DNA of 40,140 nucleotides from Arcobacter sp. (GTDB lineage: Bacteria; Campylobacterota; Campylobacteria; Campylobacterales; Arcobacteraceae). The position numbers and the translations under genes were made by a program. Shown here piece by piece: positions 7,037 to 38,977 of this stretch (the first letter of the stretch is position 1; every line of letters begins with the position of its first letter). The notes under the pieces were generated by a model that saw only the letters and a program-made list of their open reading frames with translations, was not told where the DNA came from and ran no database searches. The stretch spans positions 1 through 40,140 of the forward strand of contig PKUJ01000039.1 of the NCBI GenBank assembly GCA_002869565.1, written 5' to 3'.

Positions 7037-7600
7037 ATGATTATAGATTATAAAGATGTAAATGATTTAAATAGATACAAAATAATGTCAGATACTGTTG
7101 TTCCAAGACCAATAGCATGGATTGTTACAGAAGATGAAGGAGTTATTAATGCTGCGCCATTTTCTTACTTCGTGCCACTATCTTCAAACCCAGCAGTGGT
7201 TGTTGTTTCAATCGGTCAAAAAGAGAAAGATGTTCCAAAAGATAGCTTACACAATATATTAAAACATAAAAAAGCAACAATATGTTTTGTAAACAAAGAT
7301 AATGCAGAACAAGTAAAACTTAGCGCAACTATGCTTGATAAGAGTGAGAGTGAAATAGAAAAGTACGAAATAGAGGTACAAAGACCTTTAGAAGATTTTC
7401 CTCCAATGATTAGTTCAACACAAACAGCACTTTTTTGTGAGTTCTATTCACAAGTTGATATACCAGGTAAAACTACACCTATTATATTAGAAGTAAAAAA
7501 ACAGTATATCGAAGATGGAAGATTAGATGAAAGGTCACATGTTCATGTAGACAATGTAGGAAGAAGTGGAGCTTTCTTCAAAGCGATGGTAGATTTATAG
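7037..7600 (+). CDS. Flavin reductase-like (FMN-binding split-barrel) protein
   Basis: The 187-residue protein carries the pattern of flavin-reductase-like proteins: VPRPIAWIVTEDEGVINAAP near residues 22-41, then FSYFVPLSSNPAVVVVSIG, and a late SHVHVDNVGRSG. Family members bind FMN in a split barrel and reduce flavin or act as small flavoproteins in the cytoplasm; the substrate is not predictable. The start is preceded by AGGGGA. It stands alone, divergent from the peptidase operon, with its own promoter and a strong terminator. Confidence 0.85.
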   Translation: MIIDYKDVNDLNRYKIMSDTVVPRPIAWIVTEDEGVINAAPFSYFVPLSSNPAVVVVSIGQKEKDVPKDSLHNILKHKKATICFVNKDNAEQVKLSATMLDKSESEIEKYEIEVQRPLEDFPPMISSTQTALFCEFYSQVDIPGKTTPIILEVKKQYIEDGRLDERSHVHVDNVGRSGAFFKAMVDL

Positions 7601-7623
7601 TATTTATCACACTTTAAAATGAT

Positions 7624-7656
7624 AAAAAGCCTTACTTTTTAGTAGGGCTTTTTTTT
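7624..7656 (+). terminator. Rho-independent terminator after the flavin-reductase-like gene
   Basis: AAAAGCCTTAC, loop TTTTTA, then GTAGGGCTT form a stem with one T-G pair, followed by a run of T. Confidence 0.85.
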
Positions 7657-7673
7657 ATGCAAATTTATTTCAG

Positions 7674-7687
7674 ATTGTTATAACAAT
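7674..7687. promoter_or_regulatory. Perfect 14-bp palindrome upstream of the small HTH gene
   Basis: ATTGTTATAACAAT is its own reverse complement and lies about 27 bases before the -10 box of the next gene, where a repressor or activator would bind. Part of it, TATAACAAT, recurs in the downstream repeat at 8208-8226. Confidence 0.45.
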
Positions 7688-7713
7688 TTGAACTAATTTT
7701 AAGCTTCTTTTTG

Positions 7714-7719
7714 TATAAT
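7714..7719 (+). promoter_or_regulatory. -10 box for the small HTH gene
   Basis: TATAAT in TTTTTGTATAATTTC lies 30 bases before the start codon at 7749. TTGAAC at 7688-7693 is 20 bases upstream, too far for a normal -35 box. Confidence 0.55.
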
Positions 7720-7748
7720 TTCAACCCAAAAAATTACATAGGAGAAAA

Positions 7749-8057
7749 ATGAGAATTACAATCACAAACCATGAGTTTGAGTCAATACAAAAGATATTAG
7801 TTCAAAATGATATGTCTTTATATAATAGAATAAATGAAGAGTTCAAAAAATCAGTTTTATCTTGTACCCCAAAGAAAATAAAAGCTACAACTAAAGCTAA
7901 TAAAATGAAAAGAAAAAAGAGTAGAGACTCTATAACAAATGCAGTCAATCTATTAAGGTTTGAAAATAAAAAAGTAACAATATATAGTGTGGCAAAAACT
8001 GCTGAGATAAGCTATAACACTGCTAAACAATACAAAGATTTTATACTAGCTCAATAA
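7749..8057 (+). CDS. Small basic protein with a C-terminal helix-turn-helix
   Basis: I do not recognise this 102-residue protein as a named family. The first 40 residues look like a short helical or dimerising region. Residues 41-60 are very basic (PKKIKATTKANKMKRKKSRD). The C-terminal part, KVTIYSVAKTAEISYNTAKQ, matches a helix-turn-helix of the kind found in small regulators and in DNA-binding ends of recombinases. AGGAGA lies just before the ATG, giving a convincing start. DNA binding is therefore likely. The palindrome in its promoter and the repeats downstream of it could be its targets; that is inference. Confidence 0.7.
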   Translation: MRITITNHEFESIQKILVQNDMSLYNRINEEFKKSVLSCTPKKIKATTKANKMKRKKSRDSITNAVNLLRFENKKVTIYSVAKTAEISYNTAKQYKDFILAQ

Positions 8058-8137
8058 AACTACAAATAAATAATTATAAATAAAAATATGAAATAAACTT
8101 CTAACTTTCTTTAAGAAGTTTGTTTCAAATCCTTCAG

Positions 8138-8410
8138 TTTTCAAAATGATATGACAAAATGAAACATCAATTTTTTTTCTTATAAAATCATATAAATATA
8201 CTTATATTTCAAAATGATATAACAATCACGAAATCAGATTATTGAAGTGATTTATTTTGTAATTGCCTTGTTTATAGGGTTTTTCATTGAATGATTTTAT
8301 TTTTGTTCAAAATGATATATCAAAGTGAAAGTATTTTATTTTTAGTTTATTATCTTTTTTTGTTAGATTTACTTGATATACAAAGTGTAATATTTCAAAA
8401 TGTTATGATA
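8138..8410. repeat. Four-copy repeat, consensus TTCAAAATGATAT
   Basis: Copies start near 8139 (TTCAAAATGATATGACAAAA), 8208 (TTCAAAATGATATAACAATC), 8306 (TTCAAAATGATATATCAAAG) and 8394 (TTCAAAATGTTATGATATTT). Spacing is 68-98 bases. Two copies end in a TGAAA that mirrors the leading TTTCA or TTCA, giving a loose dyad. The same core TTCAAAATGATATG also occurs inside the HTH gene at 7802-7815. Confidence 0.75.
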
Positions 8411-8435
8411 TTTTTAATGAAAGTTTAGTTTTTCT

Positions 8436-8470
8436 TGAAGAACAGAAGTTCTTCACTTTTTTCTTTTTTA
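8436..8470 (+). terminator. Terminator-like hairpin in the non-coding stretch
   Basis: TGAAGAAC, loop AGAA, GTTCTTCA is a perfect 8-bp stem followed by CTTTTTTCTTTTTT. It could end a transcript from the HTH gene or from an unannotated RNA in 8058-8436. Confidence 0.6.
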
Positions 8471-8911
8471 GTGTTAAAAAAGAAACAAAAAAGCCACCCA
8501 CGAGTTTCGAAGGCCTTCTGCTACCCTCATATTATTTATCTTTTTTCTGTGTTTAAAAACTCACTAAAATGTGACATTTAGTCACATTTATTAACATTCA
8601 GACAGATTAAACACGGGTTTCGAAAAGAGACAAATAATGCTTCGGCTTCTGCAAATGTGGGGAGTGTTATTGTTCAAACATTTAAAATAAAAAAAGTCAG
8701 CGGAAACCTTTAGGTTTAGAAGAGAAAGATAAGTCCACATTACTTGAATATCTAGATATTGTTATAGCCCTGAGCTGTTAGCAGTCATTTGAGCCTTGTT
8801 TTTAATAAAAAAACTATATAATGGTACTAGTTATAAAAAAGTGGAGATTCAACCTCAGGTGTAATTTTCAAAGCTTCAGCTGCTTGCAGCGTTATATCGT
8901 AAAGGAGATTA

Positions 8912-9946: not shown

Positions 9947-11080
9947 ATGAATTCAATACCATCATTTGAGGAACACTATTTACCAAAAGGAATACATGAA
10001 TGTTCTGGAAAAGAATTCATATCTAGATTTTGTGATGTTAATGAGTACAGAAAAGAATTTGAAAATCCAATAATTAATATTTTTGATTTTGCTAAAGAAA
10101 GAGATTCAAAATTTCTACTTGTAGGTGGTTCGTTCATCTCTGAAAAAGAGAAGCCATCTGATTTTGACATAGTTATTGTTTTTCCAAAAGCGGAAGATAT
10201 TCCAAGAAAAACGGAACGTTTACTTATCGATGGAAATAAAATAGATATTATGTTTTGTTCTGAAGATAAACCTGAAATTATTGATTCTTTTGTTAGTCTT
10301 TTAAGTTCTGATTTAGATAATAGAGAACTTGGTATAGTGCAAGTTAATATAAATCAATCAAAATGGGAAGTTCAAGATACTAATGACTATGATGAAACTT
10401 TTGAGATTGTAAAAAGAGAATATCCACATAAACAGATTATTGATTTAAATGAGCCACAAGGAATATTAGTAACAATTCATGGTTTACTATCAAATGCAAG
10501 CTGGAATAGTGATATCGTTCCAATTGCAAGTAGCCAAGGTTGGATTGTTGCACCATTTTATTATGGATTTGAAACACCTGATATTTTAGTACGTGAAGAC
10601 AAGCGAAAAGAAATTGTTGAAAAATTTAGTGAATGGATTTTAAATATTCAAAAAACATATAATGGTCGAATCTCAATTATTGCTCATTCTTTTGGAACAT
10701 ATGTTATAGCATCATATATTAATAGTTTAAATGATTCTGCGCCTGTTTCATTTAACACTATTATTTTAACAGGAAGTATTGTCTGTATAGATTTTGACTG
10801 GGAATCTTGCCGTGGTAATAAAGTTTCAAGAGTAAGAAATGAAATTGCACCTAATGACCAATGGGTTAAATGGATGCCAGAGAACAATTGGATGCCAACA
10901 GATAGCTTATTTGGTAAATCTGGTACTGAAGGTTTTTCTACTGAATCAGAGATTTTAACGCAAGTTACTAGTACAATTTTTGATCATAATAATGTTATAA
11001 AAAAAGATGTGATATCTCAAATATGGATGCCTTATTTAAATGCGAATAAAAATGCTTATATAAAAGAAGAACGAAGATAA
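9947..11080 (+). CDS. Fusion of a DUF6932-like nucleotidyltransferase and an alpha/beta hydrolase
   Basis: Residues 1-145 look like a DNA-polymerase-beta-type nucleotidyltransferase of the DUF6932 kind. They start with LPKGIHECSGKEF (12-24), then LVGGSFISEKEKPSDFDIVI with the GGS motif (60-62) and metal ligands Asp72 and Asp74. A likely third ligand is Asp100 in NKIDIMF. Residues about 165-370 are an alpha/beta hydrolase: oxyanion-loop HGLLSNASW (178-186), nucleophile elbow IIAHSFG with Ser248, a candidate acid Asp304 in APNDQW, and His347 in FDHNNVI. Both active sites look intact. The pairing in one chain is unusual and recalls toxin or defence proteins built on nucleotidyltransferases. No antitoxin-like partner is adjacent. 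GGAAGAGC precedes the ATG. Confidence 0.75.
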   Translation: MNSIPSFEEHYLPKGIHECSGKEFISRFCDVNEYRKEFENPIINIFDFAKERDSKFLLVGGSFISEKEKPSDFDIVIVFPKAEDIPRKTERLLIDGNKIDIMFCSEDKPEIIDSFVSLLSSDLDNRELGIVQVNINQSKWEVQDTNDYDETFEIVKREYPHKQIIDLNEPQGILVTIHGLLSNASWNSDIVPIASSQGWIVAPFYYGFETPDILVREDKRKEIVEKFSEWILNIQKTYNGRISIIAHSFGTYVIASYINSLNDSAPVSFNTIILTGSIVCIDFDWESCRGNKVSRVRNEIAPNDQWVKWMPENNWMPTDSLFGKSGTEGFSTESEILTQVTSTIFDHNNVIKKDVISQIWMPYLNANKNAYIKEERR

Positions 11081-14035: not shown

Positions 14036-14884
14036 TTATTCAACAATTTGATGCAATTTTGAACATCTACTTAAAAAAGTATCGATACCACACATATCAT
14101 TATACATATCATCAAATGAGTGGAAGTGAGCATCGTATATATATACAAAAATCTCATCACCTTTTTCTAAGAAATGCTTTTTACCAAACTCTGCATAAGC
14201 AGTAGCACCGGCTGCTATTACTAGACCTTTTGCATTTTTTGCATATTTAGTAAATTGTGTTAATTCTTCTAATGGTCCTAAGTCTTCTTGAGAATTTAGT
14301 TTTTCAATCATCCAATTTTTTAATTGCTCAAAAAAGTAACTATATGAATTTACTGCTGATGTAGTGCCATAATCATGTACAATACCATCTCTTTTTATAA
14401 ATGAAGCAATATGATATCTATTTAATATTCCATCTTTTGTAAAATTATCAATTTTTATTGCATCTCTTGAAATACCTTTTGTTTTTTCTCCCCAGTTTTT
14501 CTTAGTACTTAGTTTATTTCCATCTTGTACTCTTATTGAAAAATCATTAAATGCAGAAAAATATTTTGGTATAAGATCTATAATTTTACCATTTTCATAT
14601 ACAAAGTCACAGATTAAAGCTACTTCTGCTTCAACTTGTAAGTTATCTGCTTCTCTTCCATGAGTTTTAATTATTTCATCACAAATAGGAAATGTTCCTA
14701 AAAATGAGTCGTGTCCTGGAACATAGAAAGGGAACATGCCTTTTGGAGCATCTTTCTCTTTTGTTTGGATTACTGAAAATTCATCAGCTTCTCCTGCTTC
14801 TCCTAAATGGTTTGCAAAGTTTCCTGCAACACCAAATCCTAAATAATCTTTTAATTCATTTAAGTTTATAGTATTTTTATTCAT
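14036..14884 (-). CDS. DUF5718 family protein with a fumarylacetoacetase-like fold
   Basis: The 282-residue protein starts with GFGVAGNFANHLGEAGEA and carries metal-site-like VEAEVALICDFVYENGKI and FNDFSIRV followed by KNWGEKTKGIS. This layout is reminiscent of the fumarylacetoacetate hydrolase superfamily, where E-x-E and a later D coordinate Mg. I assign it to DUF5718 from general appearance. The reaction is unknown; FAH-fold enzymes act on beta-diketo or oxaloacetate-like acids. It is not in the CoA-ester operon that lies upstream: 260 bases of non-coding DNA separate them. Confidence 0.7.
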   Translation of the reverse strand: MNKNTINLNELKDYLGFGVAGNFANHLGEAGEADEFSVIQTKEKDAPKGMFPFYVPGHDSFLGTFPICDEIIKTHGREADNLQVEAEVALICDFVYENGKIIDLIPKYFSAFNDFSIRVQDGNKLSTKKNWGEKTKGISRDAIKIDNFTKDGILNRYHIASFIKRDGIVHDYGTTSAVNSYSYFFEQLKNWMIEKLNSQEDLGPLEELTQFTKYAKNAKGLVIAAGATAYAEFGKKHFLEKGDEIFVYIYDAHFHSFDDMYNDMCGIDTFLSRCSKLHQIVE

Positions 14885-15147: not shown

Positions 15148-16131
15148 TTAAGAGAAAAATCTTTTTTGTACTTCATCTTGTAGTTTTGTTCCAGAGAAGT
15201 TTGCTCTTTGAACTAATTCCCAGAAATATCTATATGTAGCTCTATCATGTAACTCCCCATCATACTGAATTGGTCCCCACTCAGCATCTTGAGCAGCTAA
15301 AAGAATATTTTGTGCAGCTTCAAGTTCTGTAAAGTCTGGTTTCATTGCATCTACAATAGCTGTTACTTGTGTTGGATAAATTGACCACATTCTTAAGAAT
15401 CCAAATTCATTTCTAGCTTTTTCAGCATCTTTGTAAGTTTGGTATGGATTTTTTAAGTCTAATGTTACATTGTGACAAGGAATAATATGGTTTTCTAAAG
15501 CAGCTTGCACAACTTTAGCTTTAGCAGCAGCAATTATTCTATGGTCAAATTGTCCTGGGCTTCTCATGTTAGATGCTGGAATTGCTCCTTGGTAACCTGA
15601 AACAAAGTCCATTAATCCAAAGTCAAGTACTTGTACCCATGGTAAAGTAGCTGTTTTTTCTACATCTCTTAAAGCTCCATGAGTTTCAATTAAAACGTGA
15701 ATTGGGATTTCTCTTGAAATTCCAGCTTCTTTACATTTATTTTGAATATACTCAACTTGAGTTTTTGCATCTTCATATGAAGTTGATTTTGGAATAGTAA
15801 TATATGCTAATTTTTCTCCAGCACCTGGTACTAAGATATCAATATCTTGTCTCCAATCTGGATGATCAAAATCGTGAATTCTTGTTCCCGCCATACCATA
15901 TGGGTTTGCATCAGAGTTAACAACTCTTACGATCATTTCAGCATGTTCAACTTCTTTACCAGTTTCAGCTCCATCTTCACAATCACAAGTAATATCAAAA
16001 ACAGGTCCTAGTTTTTTTTGCATCTCAAAACCTTTTAGGATTAGCTTCTCGCTACCTGCAAAGTGCTCACAAGATGGGATAATTGGTAAATTGTTTCCTG
16101 AACCAAATAGTGCTTCGTTTGGGTGTGTCAT
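15148..16131 (-). CDS. CitE/HpcH-type acyl-CoA lyase (malyl-CoA / beta-methylmalyl-CoA lyase-like)
   Basis: This 327-residue protein belongs to the HpcH/HpaI aldolase/citrate lyase beta family. FDITCDCEDGAETGKEVEH carries the conserved acid pair after the first strands, AYITIPKSTS follows, HVLIETHGALRDV gives the catalytic Glu, and LDFGLMDFVSGYQGAIP the substrate loop. The C-terminal WSIYPTQVTAIVDAM and ending DGELHDRATYRYFWEL resemble the proteobacterial subgroup found beside mesaconyl-CoA hydratases. The likely reaction is Mg-dependent cleavage of beta-methylmalyl-CoA to glyoxylate and propionyl-CoA, or of a related hydroxyacyl-CoA. AAAAGGAATTATATT precedes the ATG. It is last in the operon, 190 bases after the hydratase gene. 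Confidence 0.8.
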   Translation of the reverse strand: MTHPNEALFGSGNNLPIIPSCEHFAGSEKLILKGFEMQKKLGPVFDITCDCEDGAETGKEVEHAEMIVRVVNSDANPYGMAGTRIHDFDHPDWRQDIDILVPGAGEKLAYITIPKSTSYEDAKTQVEYIQNKCKEAGISREIPIHVLIETHGALRDVEKTATLPWVQVLDFGLMDFVSGYQGAIPASNMRSPGQFDHRIIAAAKAKVVQAALENHIIPCHNVTLDLKNPYQTYKDAEKARNEFGFLRMWSIYPTQVTAIVDAMKPDFTELEAAQNILLAAQDAEWGPIQYDGELHDRATYRYFWELVQRANFSGTKLQDEVQKRFFS

Positions 16132-16322: not shown

Positions 16323-17381
16323 TTATTTAGCTGTTTTTCTTTTTGGAATAACAACTGTATAATCTAAATCAAGTACTACATTTTTTAAGTACTTACCATC
16401 TTCGTCTTTTGGATTAGAAATTTCGTCAGATTTTTGATTCTTAACTGCTATAGTTCTTAATCTTAATAATCCAATGTCCTCTCTTTTATGATCAATTGTC
16501 TCTAAAACTTCAGTATATGCATAGATTGTATCTCCTGCATAAGTAGGGTTCGCATGAGCCCCTGAGTTTATAGCATACATCCATTGAGCATTTTGTAATC
16601 CATTAAATGAAATAGCTCTTGCCATTGAAATTACAATTCCACCATACATTAATCTCTCACCCATTGGTGTAGATTTCATCATATGGTCATTGAAATGAAC
16701 TTTAGCATTGTTTTGGTATAACTTTGTAGCTAAAGTATGGTCACTATTATCAATAGTAATACCTTCTGGATGATTTAATCTTTCACCTTTTTCATAATCT
16801 TCAAAGAAATATTTTCCACCAGTCGCATCTGTATCTACAGTTTGCACTTTAGGTATATTTATTTCACCTAAAATTGGAGTTGATTCAGCAAAAGTTGGAA
16901 TCTCTTTTATTCCAGATAAACTCTCTTTATCTTTTTTGTGAACCATAACCCACCTTTTGAAGTTTAATACTTCATCACCATTTTGATTTACACCAATAGA
17001 GTGTACATATACAACTCCACTTTTTCAATTTGAATTCTCTTTTAATCCAATAACTGTTGAAGCCATTGAAACTGTATCCCCAATGAAAACTGGGAAAGGA
17101 AATGCAATTTCTGCATAACCTAAGTTTGCAATTGCATTTAAAGATATATCTTGTACAGATTTACCAAATGTTAGATGAAACATCAATGTATCATCTATAG
17201 GTCTATTTTTATATCCCATTTCTTTTGCAACTATATCCGAAGAGTGTAATGCAAACCTAGAGCCAGTGAAAGCAATGTATAAAGATACATCACCTTCACT
17301 TATTGTTCTAGGAAGAGGGTGAACAATTTTTTGACCTATTGAAAAATCTTCAAAAAAATTTCCCATATTGATTTTAGACAT
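16323..17381 (-). pseudogene. mch: Mesaconyl-CoA hydratase (two MaoC domains) interrupted by an in-frame TGA
   Basis: The start is the ATG at 17381, placed after AAGGAG; a GTG at 17387 is less well placed. The first 118 codons give MSKINMGNFFEDFSIGQKIV and TEGDVSLYIAFTGSRFAL-like residues of the first hotdog domain, ending VIGLKENSN. Codon 119 is TGA (17027-17025). The same frame then continues KSGVVYVHSIGVNQNGDEVL and RWVMVHKKD, followed by the second MaoC domain with FFEDYEKGERLNHPEG and AKVHFNDHM. Together they make 352 codons, the usual length of Mch. Relatives have ENSNRK here, so CGA or AGA became TGA. Mch hydrates mesaconyl-CoA to beta-methylmalyl-CoA. The fragment 16323-16946 (start ATG 16946) could be made separately. 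Confidence 0.88.
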
Positions 17382-17390
17382 TATCACTCC

Positions 17391-19910
17391 TTACTTATTA
17401 AATAGGTTTTGACCTAAAGATTTATATGTTTCATATAATGTAATCATTTTTTTAGCCCAAACAATTCTACATTTATCAACAAGTTTATCTTTATATTGGA
17501 TAACCTCTTTACCATCTTTAGCCGCTTCTTCGTATTGATTAATCATCTCTTCATACTCTTCAACTTCTTTTTGTTTTGGAGTAAAAATATCATTGATATA
17601 TTCAACTTGAACAGGGTGAATCAATGCTTTCCCATCAAATCCTAAGTTAAATGCATCTTTAGTTGAAGCTTCACAAGCAAATTCATCGTGAACATCATTA
17701 TGTGGTCCATCAATAACTGTTTTACCGTATGCTTTTGCTGATAATGCAATTCTTGCAAGGTAGTTAAACATTGCTTTTGAACCTTTTTTGATATCAATTT
17801 GAAGTCTATTTGCTAAATTATTTGAACCAACAACAATAACTTCAACTTTTGCACTTGCTGCACAAATATCAGGAGAATTAAGTATTGCCAGAGGTGTTTC
17901 AATCATAATCATCATTGTAAGATTTGGATTAACCTCATTTAACGCTTTTTCTGCTTCTAAAACTTGCTCCGCAGTTTCAATTTGAGCAAATAAAATTGCA
18001 TCAAATTCAATCTCACGTGCCAATTGCATATCTTTTTTAAAGTCTTCAGTTCCTAAGAAGTTAACTCTTAAAACTCTTTCAGAATCTCCAAATCTCGAAC
18101 CTTCTTTATTGTAGATATCTTTAATTAGATTTCTAGCTGGTTCTCTTTGTTCTTGTAAAATTGCTTCTAAATCGAATACTACCGAATCTGCAAGCACTGT
18201 TTTTGCTTTTCTAACAAATTTTTCATTGTATGCAGGAATAAATAACATAGATCTTCTAGCTTTGTATTCTATAATCTCTTCACCAGTCTCTTTAGAGTGA
18301 TATTGCTCATGTAACTGTTTTACTAATTGTTTTCTAAGAACTTTTCCATTTTTAGTTCTTGGATAATCACTCATTCCAAATATTGTTTTTGGTGCTTTAT
18401 ATTTAGCTAAGTTATCTTGAGCAAATTTTAAAATTTCTTGCTCTTTTTCTTCACTTAATTTTTCATGTCCAATAACTGCTATTGCAACAATAGTCTTGTC
18501 TTTTTCAATATCTAAACCAAAAGCAACACAATCAGCAACTGCATCATTAGTTTTTACAACTCTTTCAATTTCGTGTGGAGATACTCTAAATCCAAAAGTA
18601 TTGATAATATCATCTTTTCTACCAACAAACCAGATATAACCATCTTTGTCTTTTCTAGCGTAATCACCTGTAAAGAAGTAGCCATCGTGTTTTGCTTTAG
18701 CTGTTTCTTCATCTAATTGCCAGTACTCTAAGAACAGTCCTGGATCATCCATACCAATACAAATCATTCCTTCTTCACCATCTGCTACTTCTTCTAAAGT
18801 ATCAGGATCTATAAGGCTAACAGTATGTCCTGGTTGAACAAACCCAGCCGATCCTGGTCTAATTGGATTGTTTATAGAGTGTGAAATATAGTATGAACAT
18901 TCTGACATACCAATTGCTTCAAAGATATCTTGATTAAATCTATCTTTCCATAAACCAATCATCTCATCAGATAAATGTTCTCCTGCACTCATACAATATC
19001 TTAAGCTTGGACAATCTTCTATTGTAAACTCAGTTTTTTGAATAATCTGTCTATAAATTGTTGGAACACCTATAAATATAGTACATTTATGTTTTTTAAT
19101 TAAATCAATCCAAGTTCCAGCGTCATTTGCACCTTCATAAGCAATTACCGTATGACCATTATATAATGGATCCATAAGTGCTGAACCTAATACATATGTC
19201 CAGTTAAACTTACCAGAGTGCATTATTCTATCATTCTCTTTAAAATTAAACCAATATTCAGTTGCAGGTGTTCTTCCTACTAGTGATCGGTGAGAGTGCA
19301 AAACACCCTTTGGATAACCTGTTGTTCCTGATGTATAAACTAAATATGCAGGTTCTCCTGATTTAGAATTATAATGATTAGCTGATTTATCAGTTTTTTC
19401 TAAAATTTCAGAAAAACTGTATATATTTATACCTTTTGGAGCTTTTAATCCCTTTGTTGTACTAATTCCTGCAATAATTATTGTTTTTAAATTATCTACA
19501 TTTTCTAAGTATGGAACTAAGTTCTCATACATAGAAGCTGATAATACAATTGCACTAGCTTGTGAATCTTCTGCAAGATACTTAACTTCTGAACCACTTA
19601 AAAGTGTAGAAGTTGGTACTGCTGTTATTCCTGCTTTAATAGCTCCAAAGAATGAAATAGGGTATGCAAGTGAGTTTTTTAAACAAACTAATACTCTATC
19701 TCTAGGCTTAATGCCAATTCCTGTTAGGAAGTTACATACTTGATCAGATTTTTCTGATAAATCTTTGTATGAAATTTCATCAGTACCAAGTTTATCATCT
19801 TCAATGATCATTGCGGTACTATTTTCTTTCGCTGTTCCTAAATGTTTTGATGTACATGCTACACCAATATTTAAAAATTCAGGTACTTCAATTTTTACGT
19901 TTGAACTCAT
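17391..19910 (-). CDS. Acyl-CoA synthetase fused to a CitE-like acyl-CoA lyase
   Basis: I choose the ATG at 19910, nine bases after GGGAG; a TTG at 19919 would sit too close to it. Of 839 residues, about 1-535 are an AMP-forming acyl-CoA synthetase: LVYTSGTTGYPKGVLHSHRS (P-loop), DGYFFTGDYARKDKDGYIWF, GRKDDIINTFGFRVSPHEIE and the catalytic Lys in PRTKNGKVLRKQL. From about 555 to the end it is an HpcH/CitE lyase: RRSMLFIPAYNEKFVRKA, VFDLEAILQEQREPAR, the catalytic MIMIETPLAILN, and KALIHPVQVEYINDIF. The synthetase half resembles benzoate-type ligases. One chain could thus make a CoA ester and cleave its hydrated form. The gene lies 9 bases before mch and 17 after the next lyase gene. Confidence 0.88.
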   Translation of the reverse strand: MSSNVKIEVPEFLNIGVACTSKHLGTAKENSTAMIIEDDKLGTDEISYKDLSEKSDQVCNFLTGIGIKPRDRVLVCLKNSLAYPISFFGAIKAGITAVPTSTLLSGSEVKYLAEDSQASAIVLSASMYENLVPYLENVDNLKTIIIAGISTTKGLKAPKGINIYSFSEILEKTDKSANHYNSKSGEPAYLVYTSGTTGYPKGVLHSHRSLVGRTPATEYWFNFKENDRIMHSGKFNWTYVLGSALMDPLYNGHTVIAYEGANDAGTWIDLIKKHKCTIFIGVPTIYRQIIQKTEFTIEDCPSLRYCMSAGEHLSDEMIGLWKDRFNQDIFEAIGMSECSYYISHSINNPIRPGSAGFVQPGHTVSLIDPDTLEEVADGEEGMICIGMDDPGLFLEYWQLDEETAKAKHDGYFFTGDYARKDKDGYIWFVGRKDDIINTFGFRVSPHEIERVVKTNDAVADCVAFGLDIEKDKTIVAIAVIGHEKLSEEKEQEILKFAQDNLAKYKAPKTIFGMSDYPRTKNGKVLRKQLVKQLHEQYHSKETGEEIIEYKARRSMLFIPAYNEKFVRKAKTVLADSVVFDLEAILQEQREPARNLIKDIYNKEGSRFGDSERVLRVNFLGTEDFKKDMQLAREIEFDAILFAQIETAEQVLEAEKALNEVNPNLTMMIMIETPLAILNSPDICAASAKVEVIVVGSNNLANRLQIDIKKGSKAMFNYLARIALSAKAYGKTVIDGPHNDVHDEFACEASTKDAFNLGFDGKALIHPVQVEYINDIFTPKQKEVEEYEEMINQYEEAAKDGKEVIQYKDKLVDKCRIVWAKKMITLYETYKSLGQNLFNK

Positions 19911-19927: not shown

Positions 19928-21061
19928 TTAGATTTGACCGTAAGGCCAGTTTTCTTTAAATGTATGTAAAGGCATTCTATTTAATACAGTAATTGCAAAT
20001 TGGTAATCCTCTTTACTTAAACTATTAAGTGCATCAGCTCTTAATATATTTTGTAATGATTTACCAAACATTGGCGGATCAAGCATTTCACCTTCGTATC
20101 TTATTGCTCCAGATAATAGTGCATCAGTTTTAATAGCTTCTTTTAAGATAGATACATCTTTTGCAATTTCATTTGGAGATGGGGTAAATGCAACTTTACA
20201 AACATTGATATGATTTGGAGTAATAACTTGCTTACCTGTAAGACCCATTGCATATTCTCTTTGAGCATGTGCATAAACGTGTCTTGAAGCGTCATCACCA
20301 TGTAAATCTAACCATCTTCTAATATCTTTTTTCTCAACACATGAATCTGGAAGTGAATTTGGAGTTAGTAGAACTTCAACTCCACCAATAACACCTTTAC
20401 CTTTGATTCTAGCTTCCATAGTAAGCATGTTAAAGAAAGTCTCTAACTCATCAATCCAACCCTCAGGAGTAATTTTATAAGACATTGCTTTTGAAAAATC
20501 GTGAATACCAAATACAACGTGTTGTACAGTCGAATGACTCATTAATTGATCAGCAATTTTAAGTGACTTTGGATGCTCAATAATTGGTTGAATTTGTAAA
20601 TTACTTCCAATTGATACTAACCAAGAAGATAAATCTCTAATCTCAGCATCTCCATAAACTTCTCCAGCTTTTGCTAAAACAATTGCATCAACATATTTGT
20701 GAACTTGTTTTAACATTTTTAAATCTTCTTCATACTCTTCAGTTCTAAATGGATTAATTCTGATTGCTATTTGAAAATCTCTTTCTGGGAACTTTGGAAG
20801 TTCTTGGATTAAAAGTTCTCTTGACATAGCTTTTTGTCTACAACCATCTTCTAAGTCAAAAAGTACAGTATGAGCTTTTGTTTTATAAGCATGTTTTTGT
20901 AATCTTAACTTAGCTTGTTCCATACTTTCGTATGTACCATCTAATGGATTAAACTTAATTGGCGGATAGTAAATTTGAATACCAGGCCACTTTCCACCAA
21001 GTACTGGTGCTAAATCATCATTAGCTGTTAGTTTTGATAAATCTACAAAAGATGAAGTCAT
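19928..21061 (-). CDS. CitE/HpcH-type acyl-CoA lyase, first gene of the operon
   Basis: The 377-residue protein is a longer member of the HpcH/HpaI aldolase/citrate lyase family. It has IQIYYPPIKFNPLDG, TVLFDLEDGCRQKAMSRELL with the E-D pair, AIRINPFRTEEYEEDL, IQPIIEHPKSLKIAD in the catalytic-Glu position, and HVVFGIHDFSKAMSYK. AFTPSPNEI near residue 310 takes the place of the usual IHPxQ. It should act on a hydroxyacyl-CoA, for example citramalyl-CoA or malyl-CoA; three such enzymes in one operon suggest different substrates. AAAAGGTAAACATT precedes the ATG. It faces the divergent IclR gene. Confidence 0.82.
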   Translation of the reverse strand: MTSSFVDLSKLTANDDLAPVLGGKWPGIQIYYPPIKFNPLDGTYESMEQAKLRLQKHAYKTKAHTVLFDLEDGCRQKAMSRELLIQELPKFPERDFQIAIRINPFRTEEYEEDLKMLKQVHKYVDAIVLAKAGEVYGDAEIRDLSSWLVSIGSNLQIQPIIEHPKSLKIADQLMSHSTVQHVVFGIHDFSKAMSYKITPEGWIDELETFFNMLTMEARIKGKGVIGGVEVLLTPNSLPDSCVEKKDIRRWLDLHGDDASRHVYAHAQREYAMGLTGKQVITPNHINVCKVAFTPSPNEIAKDVSILKEAIKTDALLSGAIRYEGEMLDPPMFGKSLQNILRADALNSLSKEDYQFAITVLNRMPLHTFKENWPYGQI

Positions 21062-21428: not shown

Positions 21429-22157
21429 GTGCATAGACAAAATAAATCTTTTTCAAAAGGCTTACAAGTTTTAAAAGAAATTATGCGTTCTACTAAACCA
21501 CTTACTGCAAATGTATTATGTCAAAGACTTACAATTGATAAGAGTACAATGTCTAGATTGGTTACAACACTAATGAGCGAAGGTTTTATTGAATACAAAG
21601 ATGATTCAAAAGAGATAATAGTAAGTGATATTGTTAGAAAAATCATAAATAAAGATGATAGAGAAAAAATTGTTGAAAAAACAAGTGCTTTATTAGATGA
21701 AATTTTTTATTTAACAAATGAAGCCTCTTATCTTGGAATTTTAGATAATAATGCAACTTTATATTTAAATCAAGTAGATAAATCAGATAGAGTTATAAAA
21801 ACTAGGGATTCTATAGGACTTAATGCTCCTCTTCATTCAGGAGCCTTTGGAAAAATTTTAATAGCATTTGGAAATGTAAATATTGAAAAGTTAGAACTTA
21901 CAAAATTTACTAGTAATACAATAACAAGTGTCACGAAACTTAAAAAAGAGATAGAATTAGTAAAAGAAAGAGGTTATGCAATAGGGGACGAAGAACATGA
22001 ATTTGGTTTAAAGTCTGTTGCAGTTCCATATTTCAATAAACAAAATCAATTTGTAGGAACTATTGGAATATCAGGCTTATCTGTTAGACTAGATGAAGGA
22101 ACTCTTCATTTATATGGTCAGAAAATCTTTCAATTGGTAAGTAGTAGTAATTTATAA
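21429..22157 (+). CDS. IclR-family transcriptional regulator
   Basis: The 242-residue protein starts at a GTG preceded by AGAGAGAAAATAA. Residues about 8-60 are the winged helix: SKGLQVLKEIMRSTKPLTAN, then LTIDKSTMSRLVTTLMSEGF as recognition helix. Residues about 75-240 are the IclR effector domain, with LNAPLHSGAFGKILIAFG, ERGYAIGDEEHEFGLKSVAV and FVGTIGISGLSVRL. Family members sense a metabolite and regulate the neighbouring catabolic operon. It is divergent from the CoA-ester operon and most likely controls it, by repression or activation. Confidence 0.92.
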   Translation: MHRQNKSFSKGLQVLKEIMRSTKPLTANVLCQRLTIDKSTMSRLVTTLMSEGFIEYKDDSKEIIVSDIVRKIINKDDREKIVEKTSALLDEIFYLTNEASYLGILDNNATLYLNQVDKSDRVIKTRDSIGLNAPLHSGAFGKILIAFGNVNIEKLELTKFTSNTITSVTKLKKEIELVKERGYAIGDEEHEFGLKSVAVPYFNKQNQFVGTIGISGLSVRLDEGTLHLYGQKIFQLVSSSNL

Positions 22158-33825: not shown

Positions 33826-35121
33826 TTAAAATAATTCTTTAGTAAAACTGCTATACCAGTCTTTTGCAGCAATAAAATTATTTTTAGATAGATTTGATGT
33901 TTTTGAAAAGGTAATCATTTTATCCTCATATTTATAATTGTGACTTACCCATGCCCCTTTATTTTCACTAATTATTGAATAACAAACATTACCCGGTAAG
34001 TTTCTCTTATAATCAAAAACTTGATTTCTAATTCTTGCATCAATATCTTTTGCAAGAACTAAAGCACAGGAGTTTGCCATTTGAGCTGATTTTGGAAAGG
34101 GGTATTCTCCTTGTGCGTCACCTATTACATATATATCACTATCTGTTATAGTTTGATATGTTGGCTTTCTTAGTTTTACCCAACCTTGTGTATACATTTC
34201 TATATTTGCTTTTTTATAAAGTCTATTTGCTCTATTTGGTGGGATTATTGATGCTTCATTAAAATCAATTTCATTTTTCATATATTTATTGAGTTTTTCA
34301 TTAAAGTGCTTTGTATAAATCTTTTTTCTTCTAAAATCTATATCTTTGAAGTTAGTAAGTGGTTTGTACTCTATAAACTCTTTGTACTCATTATTGAAAG
34401 CCTCTAAGTATATATTTGCTTTAGAAGCGGGTTTAGCTCTCGGGTCTATTAAAATTACTTTCCCATTAATTTTATTTTTTTTAAAATAATTTGCAATCAT
34501 GCAAGCTCTTTCATATGGAGCAGGAGGACATTTATAAGAAGATCTTGGAAGAGTTATTACAAAATTTCCACCTTTGAAATCTGTAATCATTTTTTTTAAC
34601 TTTATTAATTCACTTCCTGGTTTAAGTGCAGCAGGCGCTTTTAAAGAAACTTCTTTAATTTTTTCTTTACTTTTTTTTAATATTTTTTTATAATTATAAT
34701 CAATTCCTAATGTCATAACTAAAAAATCATATTCAAGTATAGATTTATGAGTTGTTACAATTTTTTCTTTTTTATTTATATCTATAATTGTTTCATTAAT
34801 AAAATTATATTTATGTTTTAAAATTGAAGAGTTGTAGTCAAAGCAGAGGGATTCGTATGTAATACCTTCAATTTCTCCTATCCAAGCATTGCTAAAGGGG
34901 CAAGAAATAAAAGTATTATTTTTTTCAACAAGAGTTACGTTTAAATTTGGGTTTAATTGTTTTAGGTATTTTGCTGTACTTATTCCCGCAAAACCACCAC
35001 CTAAAATTAATATGTTTGATTTTTTTGTATTATTTTGTATTTTTGAAGAAGCTGTAATTTTAGTATTAGTTAAAATTGTTGACGTAATAAGAGAAAGTTT
35101 TATAAAAGTTCTTCTTTTCAT
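33826..35121 (-). CDS. FccB-like FAD-dependent sulfide dehydrogenase subunit, Tat-exported
   Basis: This 431-residue flavoprotein begins MKRRTFIKLS, a twin-arginine signal, so it should be folded before export to the periplasm. The FAD site is ILILGGGFAGISTAKYL (about 37-53). Cys74 in ISCPFSN and Cys198 in SYKCPPAPYERAC match the conserved cysteine regions of flavocytochrome c sulfide dehydrogenase. YVIGDAQGEYPFPKSAQMAN is the second FAD-binding stretch, and the C-terminal part fits the flavin-binding C-terminal domain. The usual cytochrome partner FccA is not adjacent. It abuts the thioredoxin gene with no gap. Sulfide or polysulfide as substrate is likely, not proven. Confidence 0.83.
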   Translation of the reverse strand: MKRRTFIKLSLITSTILTNTKITASSKIQNNTKKSNILILGGGFAGISTAKYLKQLNPNLNVTLVEKNNTFISCPFSNAWIGEIEGITYESLCFDYNSSILKHKYNFINETIIDINKKEKIVTTHKSILEYDFLVMTLGIDYNYKKILKKSKEKIKEVSLKAPAALKPGSELIKLKKMITDFKGGNFVITLPRSSYKCPPAPYERACMIANYFKKNKINGKVILIDPRAKPASKANIYLEAFNNEYKEFIEYKPLTNFKDIDFRRKKIYTKHFNEKLNKYMKNEIDFNEASIIPPNRANRLYKKANIEMYTQGWVKLRKPTYQTITDSDIYVIGDAQGEYPFPKSAQMANSCALVLAKDIDARIRNQVFDYKRNLPGNVCYSIISENKGAWVSHNYKYEDKMITFSKTSNLSKNNFIAAKDWYSSFTKELF

Positions 35122-36404: not shown

Positions 36405-38777
36405 CTACTTAGCAGCTTTATTAATTATTTCATGCATTTTATTGATATGCTCTGTAGCATTCAATTTTTTGTTTGTATTTAGTTTATTCCATAGTTCGTC
36501 ATTTTTCATATTTTGATGACATCCCATACATAAACCAGTTTTTTCCATTCTTTCTCTTTGGTCTTGATCAAGAGGTCTTGATGCAGGCCAGTGAGTACCA
36601 ACAGTTTGAAGTTGTTTACCATCTCTAGTTACAACTTGTGACCAATCGTAATCCATACCTGGAATACCTTTCATTTGAACTGTTTTATTTTTAGGAACAA
36701 ATTCGCCTGTTGCAAGGTTTTGTAGATCCATATATTTGTCTTTACCTTGGGCTTTCATAAATTGTCCATCCTGAATACCATATCCTAATGTTTTAGGATT
36801 AGAGTGACAAGATTCACAAGATCTAGCTTTTCTACCTGATGTATGAGGCTGAACAGGAGACATATCTGTACCCGCTACTAGTGAACCATTAGGTCCATCC
36901 GGAACTTGAGCTTGTTTGTTTAGAACTAATGTTTTACCATCAGGTCCAATTACAGTAAATGTAACTTGACAACCAGGCATGATTGGAGTTACAAGTCCTT
37001 CACCATTGATTCCTAAGATTGGGTCTTCCCATCTTAAGTAAGATCTAGTTTCACTAGCTTTACCAAATAGTTTTTTCCCTTTTGTTCCTAATACAGACTC
37101 AGAAGTTTCACCATTTTTAAAGTTTGTTGAACCAGATGCAATCCAGTCAGTTTTTGATTTACCTGGAGTATAATCAACTTTGATGTGGCAACCATAACAT
37201 TGTGGAGCCCAATCTGAGTGACAAGAATAACACTCTAAGTTATCCATGTGTGCTTGAATTTTACCCATAGCAACGTCAGCATCTTTTGATTTCCATGCAG
37301 CATTGTCAGCTTTGTATCTTAGTAAAGGAACTTCTAAATCTTTTCCTGAAGCTAAGTGAGCGATGGCTTTATTTACACCTTTAACTTTTACAACATTTCC
37401 AAGTGGATTACCTCTTGTAGATAGCAAGTACCCATCTTCTTTATCATATACTGTACCTTGAGTCATGAAGTATGGTAAATCTTGAGCCATTCCTCTTGGA
37501 CCTTCAGGAGTATCGATACCGAATTTTTCACCATAACCAATTGCTAATTCCCATGGATATTTGTCATTTGTACAATGACAATCTGAACACTCAATTTCAA
37601 CTTGTCCTAGTGTAGTACCAAATAATGTACCATCACCATGCATATCAACTGATGTATGACAATCTTGACAAGTCATTCCAGCTTCAAAGTGTAAGTCTTC
37701 TTTTATGTGTTTATATCTTTTACCATGATGTTTAGATTGTGATTTACCACCTTCTTGTAATGGTGAACCATAAGGTTGTTCCATTAAACCAACATAAGAA
37801 ACACCGATTCTTTTTCCTCTATTGTGACAAGAGTTACAAGTTTCTGGGTGAATACCAGAAAATTCCATACCAGATGGTGTTTTAACTTTTGCTTCTCTCG
37901 TACCTTGAATCATGTGAACTAACATATGTCCATGTTCAGATTTATCAATAGTAGGATCGTTACCTTCGTAAATACCTTCATTACCATATGGCATATGACA
38001 TGCTGAACATCCCATACCTCTCCAGTCACCTCTACCTTTTCTACCTCTTACCCCAATATGACACCTTTGACAGTCAGATCTTTGGTAAGTAATAGAAGCC
38101 ATATATCCAATTTCATCAATTGATTTATCTTTGAAATCTTCTGGCCCAGTTGGTGGTAATGGAAGTTGTTTTAACTCAGTTGGAAACTGGTCAGGATATT
38201 TATCGATCATTTTAACCATATAATCTTTATATACTTTTGTTCCCCAAGCTGGAGTTTTACCATCTTCATCTTTTACATCATAGTTTGCAAACTTAGATTT
38301 TTTGGTTGGCTCTGAACCCCATGAATGTAAGTTACCTTGAATCTTACCAGCTTCAGTAGCCATTAAAGATTTCTTAGTATTTGCAACTGTATCTGCGTGA
38401 CAGATACCACAAGTTTTGTCTGCAATCCAAATTGAACCTGGATCTCTAACAAATTCTGATAAACCACCAGCATGAGCTGCAGGTGCACCTTTATGTGCTC
38501 CAGCTACAGTTCCATCTTCTGGATTACCTCCATGACATACTACACAGCCAGCAGTATCTCCAAGACCTTGTCCCATTGCAAGTATTTGTTGCATCATATT
38601 AGATTTTTCATCTCTGATAGACTCAATACCTTTATGACACTTAATACATGAATCGCCACCTTCAACTGCAGCCATTTCAACTTTTCCTTTTGAATGCTCA
38701 ACAGCACCAAAAGAAAGAGTTGAGAGTATAGCAGTGAAAAAAGCAATTTTAGCAATTCTAAACATCGAGCTTTTCAT
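36405..38777 (-). CDS. Periplasmic dodecahaem c-type cytochrome
   Basis: I choose the ATG at 38777, which follows AAGGAGAAGA; an upstream ATG at 38831 adds 18 residues without signal-like character. The 790-residue protein has a signal peptide (about 1-24, ending LSFGA) and twelve CxxCH motifs: CIKCH, CVVCH, CGICH, CQRCH, CSACH, CNSCH, CQDCH, CSDCH, CYSCH, CYGCH, CESCH and CMGCH. I see no CxxCK or long-spaced haem site, so it is not an NrfA or MccA type. A 200-residue region between motifs 10 and 11 has no haem and looks beta-rich (PIMPGCQVTFTVIGPDGK). Position next to FccB and thioredoxin genes suggests sulfur redox chemistry; the substrate is not known. Confidence 0.88.
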   Translation of the reverse strand: MKSSMFRIAKIAFFTAILSTLSFGAVEHSKGKVEMAAVEGGDSCIKCHKGIESIRDEKSNMMQQILAMGQGLGDTAGCVVCHGGNPEDGTVAGAHKGAPAAHAGGLSEFVRDPGSIWIADKTCGICHADTVANTKKSLMATEAGKIQGNLHSWGSEPTKKSKFANYDVKDEDGKTPAWGTKVYKDYMVKMIDKYPDQFPTELKQLPLPPTGPEDFKDKSIDEIGYMASITYQRSDCQRCHIGVRGRKGRGDWRGMGCSACHMPYGNEGIYEGNDPTIDKSEHGHMLVHMIQGTREAKVKTPSGMEFSGIHPETCNSCHNRGKRIGVSYVGLMEQPYGSPLQEGGKSQSKHHGKRYKHIKEDLHFEAGMTCQDCHTSVDMHGDGTLFGTTLGQVEIECSDCHCTNDKYPWELAIGYGEKFGIDTPEGPRGMAQDLPYFMTQGTVYDKEDGYLLSTRGNPLGNVVKVKGVNKAIAHLASGKDLEVPLLRYKADNAAWKSKDADVAMGKIQAHMDNLECYSCHSDWAPQCYGCHIKVDYTPGKSKTDWIASGSTNFKNGETSESVLGTKGKKLFGKASETRSYLRWEDPILGINGEGLVTPIMPGCQVTFTVIGPDGKTLVLNKQAQVPDGPNGSLVAGTDMSPVQPHTSGRKARSCESCHSNPKTLGYGIQDGQFMKAQGKDKYMDLQNLATGEFVPKNKTVQMKGIPGMDYDWSQVVTRDGKQLQTVGTHWPASRPLDQDQRERMEKTGLCMGCHQNMKNDELWNKLNTNKKLNATEHINKMHEIINKAAK

Positions 38778-38977
38778 CTTCTTCTCCTTATATTGTTGGG
38801 AACACACCCAACCATTTATGAATAGTAACAAATAAAAGTGCTTGGAAAGTGCCTAATCTAATTTTTAGAATCTATTTAAATAAATTAAGTTAAATTTAAT
38901 TAAATTAGATTGATTTTGGTCAATTTATATTAATTTTCAATTGGTTAGAATAAAGGGAAAATTAAGAGGAAGTCTCT

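Follow-up and report, generated by a model that had tools for sequence, protein, structure and literature searches.

A widespread fusion of an acyl-CoA ligase with a CitE-like domain that lacks a magnesium ligand of malyl-CoA lyases in Arcobacter and relatives

An acyl-coenzyme A (acyl-CoA) synthetase joined to a CitE-like domain in one polypeptide was described in 2007 in Arcobacter butzleri, where AB1918, encoded within the ab1917-ab1921 cluster, consists of a CaiC-like domain (residues 50-550) followed by a CitE domain (residues 550-825) (PMC2147049). In its sections on this cluster, that report proposes a role as a mesaconyl-CoA synthetase and counts the CitE domain of AB1918 as a possible malyl-CoA lyase; neither the fusion nor the proposed pathway is therefore new. 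Here we analysed a gene of the same architecture, located at positions 17391..19910 on the minus strand of a 40,140-nucleotide stretch of DNA from Arcobacter sp. (GenBank assembly GCA_002869565.1, contig PKUJ01000039.1), the whole of which is hereafter called the window. As in ab1917-ab1921, the fusion gene is flanked by genes for CitE-like proteins, referred to below as lyase A and lyase C, and for a hydratase of the mesaconyl-CoA hydratase (Mch) family; unlike in the A. butzleri cluster, as far as PMC2147049 describes it, no fumarase gene directly follows lyase C.

In the malyl-CoA lyase of Rhodobacter sphaeroides, Glu141 and Asp168 coordinate Mg. These two residues, together with Glu44 and Asp45, are given as absolutely conserved across CitE-like enzymes and malate synthases, and a change of the lid Asp to Glu is given only for the malyl-CoA thioesterase clade, in the portions of PMC3832036 that treat these positions. 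They provide the reference for the fused domain.

The fusion gene is a single uninterrupted frame, stop codon included, of 839 amino acids. It matches AMP-binding (PF00501, E 1.6e-71) at residues 33-397, which places the domain at 18720..19814 when coordinates are derived from residue numbers, AMP-binding_C (PF13193) at residues 447-523, and HpcH_HpaI (PF03328, E 2.7e-32) at residues 553-766 (17613..18254), all on the minus strand, as are the residues located below. The original prediction, made from the sequence of the window, had placed a synthetase and a CitE-like lyase domain in one chain and had stated that the synthetase keeps its P-loop and catalytic Lys, and both statements stood. The P-loop YTSGTTGYPKG (residues 192-202; 19305..19337) is constant in 62 distinct fused sequences apart from Tyr or Phe at residue 199, and the motif PRTKNGK, with Arg or Lys at residue 518, is equally invariant; it includes Lys523 (18342..18344; 62/62), which we take to be the A10 lysine of the synthetase. 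Both domains, the P-loop and the Lys of an AMP-forming acyl-CoA synthetase are therefore present. The two halves are connected by a linker at about residues 531-550 (18261..18320), which is variable in the alignment and has a predicted local distance difference test score (pLDDT) below 50 at residues 541-551.

The lyase half had likewise been predicted to keep its acidic metal-site residues, and this was contradicted. After removal of identical sequences and with locus L130 left out, 70 distinct fused sequences were compared. Glu671 (17898..17900), the equivalent of the first Mg ligand Glu141, is present in the window, but the position of the second ligand, Asp168, is occupied by Asn698 (17817..17819) and is never Asp in the fused sequences (Lys in 48, Asn in 10, Thr in 6, Ser in 2, Arg in 2, Ala in 1 and Gln in 1). 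The DLED motif, in which Glu44 and Asp45 hold Mg-bound waters, is DLEA here (18162..18173), and one of these two residues is missing in 70/70. The lid residue is Asp throughout, not the Glu of the malyl-CoA thioesterase (Mcl2) clade. We found no publication on the loss of the metal site in this fusion, in a literature search that lacked most subscription journals.

The closest unfused relatives found, 32-40% identical to the fused domain, are stand-alone proteins of Kangiella, Thalassotalea, Methylophilales and others, here called lyase B, which share families of neighbouring genes with the fusion. Among 53 distinct stand-alone sequences, the Asp168 position is Asp in 51, Asn in 1 and Glu in 1, the Glu141 position is always Glu, the Arg76 position is always Arg, and the Asp45 position is Asp in 36, Glu in 13 and Ala in 4. 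Because a metal-binding residue that these separate relatives keep has been lost, the fused domain probably no longer performs lyase chemistry. The residues thus argue against the candidate-lyase role proposed in 2007 for the fused CitE domain, according to the same sections of PMC2147049, and point instead to lyases A and C. The reading that we favour, with some reserve, is of a CoA ligase for a C5 dicarboxylate, likely mesaconate, joined to a CitE-like domain of barrel and lid; that domain would no longer be a Mg-dependent lyase, and cleavage would be left to the flanking lyases.

When the lyase half was predicted alone from 70 sequences, a TIM barrel with its C-terminal lid, lid hairpin included, was obtained at a pLDDT of 90.4 and a predicted template modelling score (pTM) of 0.86; it aligned with the malyl-CoA lyase 5ugr over 285 residues (Z 33.5, root-mean-square deviation 3.0), and 4l9z ranked first in Foldseek. 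The whole predicted fold is therefore shared with Mcl1 (4l9y and 4l9z of R. sphaeroides, 5ugr of Methylobacterium extorquens), as are, in most sequences, the Glu, the Arg and the lid Asp. The fused domain differs from Mcl1 in the loss of the second Mg ligand, in a DLED motif one residue short and in its connection to a CoA ligase. A predicted fold held in common with malyl-CoA lyases shows no function. An AlphaFold model of the whole fusion (pLDDT 72.1, pTM 0.50) was of too low quality to show the packing of the two halves.

Several observations weigh against the reading favoured here. The Glu141 equivalent is Glu in 62, Asp in 7 and Ala in 1 of the 70 fused sequences, the Arg76 equivalent (Arg615) is Arg in 63 and Lys in 7, and the equivalent of the lid residue Asp299 (Asp812; 17475..17477) is Asp in all 70; together these exceed what an inert scaffold would need. 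Asn697, which adjoins the lost Asp, is kept in 69/70, and Asn can coordinate Mg; the domain may thus hold a changed site for metal or water. Moreover, the loss at the Glu position of DLED is not special to the fusion, since the stand-alone relatives depart from the canonical motif there as well (Gly in 39, Gln in 12, His in 1 and Glu in 1 of 53). The four conserved residues, strong purifying selection on the lyase half and the completeness of the predicted fold would suit a domain that is active with changed chemistry, as a thioesterase, hydratase or lyase that needs no metal or binds it through other ligands, with the ligase product or malyl-CoA as substrate. We consider this unlikely on balance, given that position 698 varies freely, which is unusual for a catalytic site, and that the copy in a Chromatiales metagenome-assembled genome (MAG; locus L101) has lost the Glu as well.

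The median dN/dS over 687 pairs was 0.184 for the lyase half and 0.135 for the ligase half, from 38 equal-length sequences compared ungapped, some of which are identical under two names. Among pairs with a ligase distance of 0.20-0.30, lyase distances had a median of 0.435 when fused (n=1078) as compared to 0.304 when stand-alone (n=46). By these sequence comparisons, the lyase half is less constrained than the ligase half, yet under purifying selection.

If the domain is no longer a lyase, cleavage would fall to its neighbours. Lyase A (377 amino acids; 19928..21061) and lyase C (327 amino acids; 15148..16131; of the 3qqw/3r4i type), both on the minus strand, have complete metal sites, and together with the fusion they account for all HpcH_HpaI matches in the genome. 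All six canonical metal-site positions are kept, where covered, in 109 distinct aligned stretches of lyase A and in 136 of lyase C, one lyase C stretch with a stop codon excepted; many lyase C stretches end at locus ends, and the later positions are covered in only 88-90 of the 136. At locus L134, a TAG lies within lyase C.

These neighbours bear on the proposal that the first and last steps of a pathway are channelled within one chain. The logic of the operon would fit such a bifunctional enzyme, with active sites for both steps, but the metal-site losses in 70/70 and the presence of two complete lyases in the same operon make it distinctly improbable. Since the superfamily metal residues are lost and complete separate lyases are encoded alongside, it is unlikely that the last step is catalysed by the fused domain; channelling in one chain is therefore not supported. 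Another form of channelling would work through a pseudoenzyme: the dead barrel, with the ligase bolted on, would join the oligomers of lyase A or C and lend its lid Asp in trans. In malyl-CoA lyases, each active site is closed by the lid of an adjoining subunit, according to the structural part of PMC3832036, and Asp812 is kept in every fused sequence while the domain's own metal site is lost, which is why we raise this arrangement; we nevertheless hold it to be quite unlikely. It is possible that the fused domain tethers the ligase to other enzymes.

The fusion is real, old and previously described. At a threshold of E<=1e-100, 79 of the 104 Arcobacteraceae genomes carried a match free of internal stops. 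The matches run through a single frame over almost the full length, with the exception of one genome (G020), where the match is split across two contigs. A sample of 397 genomes of the phylum gave 39 matches at E<=1e-60, of which 34 were from Arcobacteraceae, 4 from a second family that includes Sulfurospirillum (S. arcachonense, locus L095), and 1 was a partial match to the synthetase only. The lyase half was also scanned against one genome each for 84,980 species, which yielded at least 593 stretches, 568 of them confirmed; the best 80 of the 568 comprised 26 fused loci (L095-L120) and 54 stand-alone ones, and further fused copies may follow lower in the ranking. Among the matches listed, fused copies occurred also in three gammaproteobacterial MAGs and in one Thermodesulfovibrionales MAG (L120). 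Searching plasmid proteins with the fusion matched 3646 records, 7 of which covered at least 80% of the query at one place; these figures are match coverage only and are not read as fusions. An origin of the join in a lost stop codon or in faulty assembly can practically be dismissed, as conservation in the 79 family genomes and in other phyla argues against it; no support for it was found. A stop codon does interrupt the adjoining hydratase gene in this assembly. A further possibility, that the fusion is widespread with a known different function, was borne out in that it is widespread and already published; as to function, the sections of PMC2147049 on the cluster contain no activity test.

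In both half-trees, rooted on 22 stand-alone sequences (those of the 54 stand-alone loci in which both genes are complete), 72 distinct fused sequences formed one clade, with support of 0.996 for the ligase half and 0.929 for the lyase half. The stand-alone sequences were not recovered as a single clade. In the loci of Kangiella, Thalassotalea, Aliikangiella and their relatives (L121-L134), the gene order runs from lyase A through an unfused ligase (55-61% identity to the N-terminal half of the fusion) and a separate lyase B (33-40%) to Mch, and lyase C is divergent. Because ligase and lyase B adjoin unfused in these loci, the fusion probably joined two neighbouring genes, and the fused domain probably descends from a stand-alone lyase B such as still lies beside the unfused ligase in Kangiella and its relatives. 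Lyase B differs from the fused domain in being a separate gene, in its metal Asp and in its non-canonical lid residue (Glu in 52 of 53, Gln in 1), which resembles that of the R. sphaeroides malyl-CoA thioesterase clade, as delimited in the portion of PMC3832036 on this residue. The lid Glu also occurs in Ruegeria, in a CoA ester lyase encoded close to Mch. On the basis of this residue, stand-alone lyase B may be a malyl-CoA thioesterase. The fused domain could then be a relic whose thioesterase job was lost because malate synthase G removes glyoxylate, and a gene resembling that of malate synthase G, scored over a part of 242 residues, does occur in this genome. Such a history is very improbable: the lyase half is under purifying selection, and malate synthase was matched in only 14 of the 104 family genomes, 13 of them with the fusion, as compared to the 79 that carry the fusion. 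For the same reason, we rejected replacement of lyase B by malate synthase as a general cause.

The ligase half is an AMP-forming, ATP-dependent CoA ligase whose substrate is most likely mesaconate or a closely similar C5 dicarboxylic acid, as suggested by gene context, not by the ligase sequence. In the proposed route, the ligase half would make mesaconyl-CoA, which the Mch-family hydratase would turn into beta-methylmalyl-CoA; lyase C, possibly with lyase A, would split this into propionyl-CoA and glyoxylate, and the propionyl-CoA would enter the methylcitrate cycle. The fused domain would act as an oligomerisation, tethering or CoA-ester-sensing module. The ligase-hydratase-lyase order of the original prediction fits the operon and resembles the A. 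butzleri proposal; its assignment of the last step to the fused domain became unlikely with the loss of the metal site.

The link to the methylcitrate cycle comes from gene neighbourhoods. Forty loci (L135-L174) with unfused genes, many from Methylotenera or other Methylophilaceae, were compared; prp genes lay in the fetched flank of 29/40, and clusters of prpB, prpC and prpD lay near the gene set in 24/40. At L155, the neighbours are annotated as prpB, prpC, prpD, sdhA, a malic enzyme-like gene and a GntR regulator. The methylcitrate cycle cluster of Methylotenera is highly expressed in situ, and its role and the metabolite processed are stated to be unknown in the relevant part of PMC3728764. 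Because the gene set lies with prp genes in these 29 loci, a C5 dicarboxylic acid, e.g. mesaconate, is predicted as the source of propionyl-CoA and glyoxylate. In the Thermodesulfovibrionales MAG, genes for a propionate-CoA ligase-like protein and a fumarase come after the fused operon, and then a prpB-prpC fusion and prpD; the prpB-prpC fusion is one frame of 668 amino acids at positions 12084-14090 of L120. Within 2.5 kb after lyase C, a class I fumarase, of a family with known mesaconase activity according to the part of PMC4682846 that bears on it, was found in 11 of the 26 fused loci among the best 80 matches, and this is not so in the window. At the contig edge (1-132, minus strand), a class I fumarase-like gene is represented in the window by its initial 44 residues, which are 68% identical to the fumarase of L104. 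Taken together, the context suggests that propionyl-CoA is a product or a substrate and that mesaconate is an intermediate, and it fixes neither direction nor substrate. The picture is of a conserved ligase with a metal-site-less lyase-like domain, in a gene set that spans phyla and is often tied to the methylcitrate cycle.

Other observations sit less easily with a mesaconate ligase that feeds this cycle. The solved structures that best match the ligase half are benzoate, anthranilate and 4-hydroxybutyrate ligases. Flanking prp genes were found in none of 14 Kangiella-type loci and in only 1 of 14 fused loci examined. Over the 104 family genomes, a prpB-like gene and the fusion occurred together in 77, the fusion alone in 2, prpB alone in 5 and neither in 20, counts that are uncorrected for kinship and in which five genomes (fusion) and two (prpB) were assigned by elimination and one prpB was checked. 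The metabolic sections of PMC2147049 propose the reverse direction, from propionyl-CoA and glyoxylate to acetyl-CoA and pyruvate, and report that A. butzleri failed to grow on acetate or propionate.

The hydratase adds a further difficulty. An Mch-family gene does adjoin the fusion (16323..17387, minus strand), as had been predicted, but its frame is not intact: a TGA interrupts it at 17025-17027, and no second copy was found anywhere in this assembly. The pathway may therefore be off in this genome. At the TGA site, the same sense residue was present in 65 of 67 aligned stretches and another residue in 1, and the stop occurred only in this genome; it is either a recent loss or a sequence error. 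Among the hydratase matches examined, the sole other early stop was a TAA in the Mch of L014/L112, two retrievals of a single MAG from a different genus. An intact relative (L068) aligned over its full length with 4e3e (E 2e-109) and with 8hgn, a beta-methylmalyl-CoA dehydratase (E 5.6e-100). Mch adjoins lyase C also on Cupriavidus oxalaticus and Sphingobium plasmids, and on a Marinobacter plasmid it lies near a CoA transferase, with no annotated lyase C in the stretch viewed.

Several other routes were considered and rejected, the ethylmalonyl-CoA pathway and the glyoxylate cycle for this genome. For the methylaspartate cycle, methylaspartate ammonia-lyase was above the cut-off in 0/104 family genomes, with one weak match below it (G072). 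Glutamate mutase (subunit E) matches occurred in 60/104 and lie, in this genome, beside a GlmL-like protein and an adenylating ligase; this operon, outside the window (L080, 10107-14660), encodes subunits S and E and the GlmL-like protein and has no methylaspartate ammonia-lyase. Its AMP-forming ligase is nearest to the exosortase-associated type, and the operon perhaps provides methylaspartate for a special metabolite. For the ethylmalonyl-CoA pathway, crotonyl-CoA carboxylase/reductase was above the cut-off in 2/104 (G032 and G033), this genome not among them. For the glyoxylate cycle, no full-length isocitrate lyase was found: PF00463 matches in 82/104 were partial, covering about 85-111 of 526 positions, and the sole frame checked was a methylisocitrate lyase.

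Upstream of the operon, an IclR-type regulator gene (21429..22157, plus strand) is divergently oriented, and its nearest NCBIfam model is BhcR (117.6 bits against a cut-off of 350). Downstream, as in many Arcobacteraceae loci, lies a gene for a DUF5718 protein (14036..14884, minus strand); by eye it resembles fumarylacetoacetate hydrolases, which was not confirmed, there being no clear sequence match in the PDB. On L080, a TsoY family (seleno)protein is encoded at 7437-8600 (512.7 bits). In the window, a single frame at 9947-11080 appears by eye to combine a nucleotidyltransferase-like N-terminal half (GGS...DFD) with an alpha/beta-hydrolase-like half. A frame of 808 amino acids at 36405-38831, with many CxxCH motifs by eye, is a probable multihaem cytochrome, and a flavoprotein-like gene (33826-35121) and several thioredoxin-like ones are located nearby.

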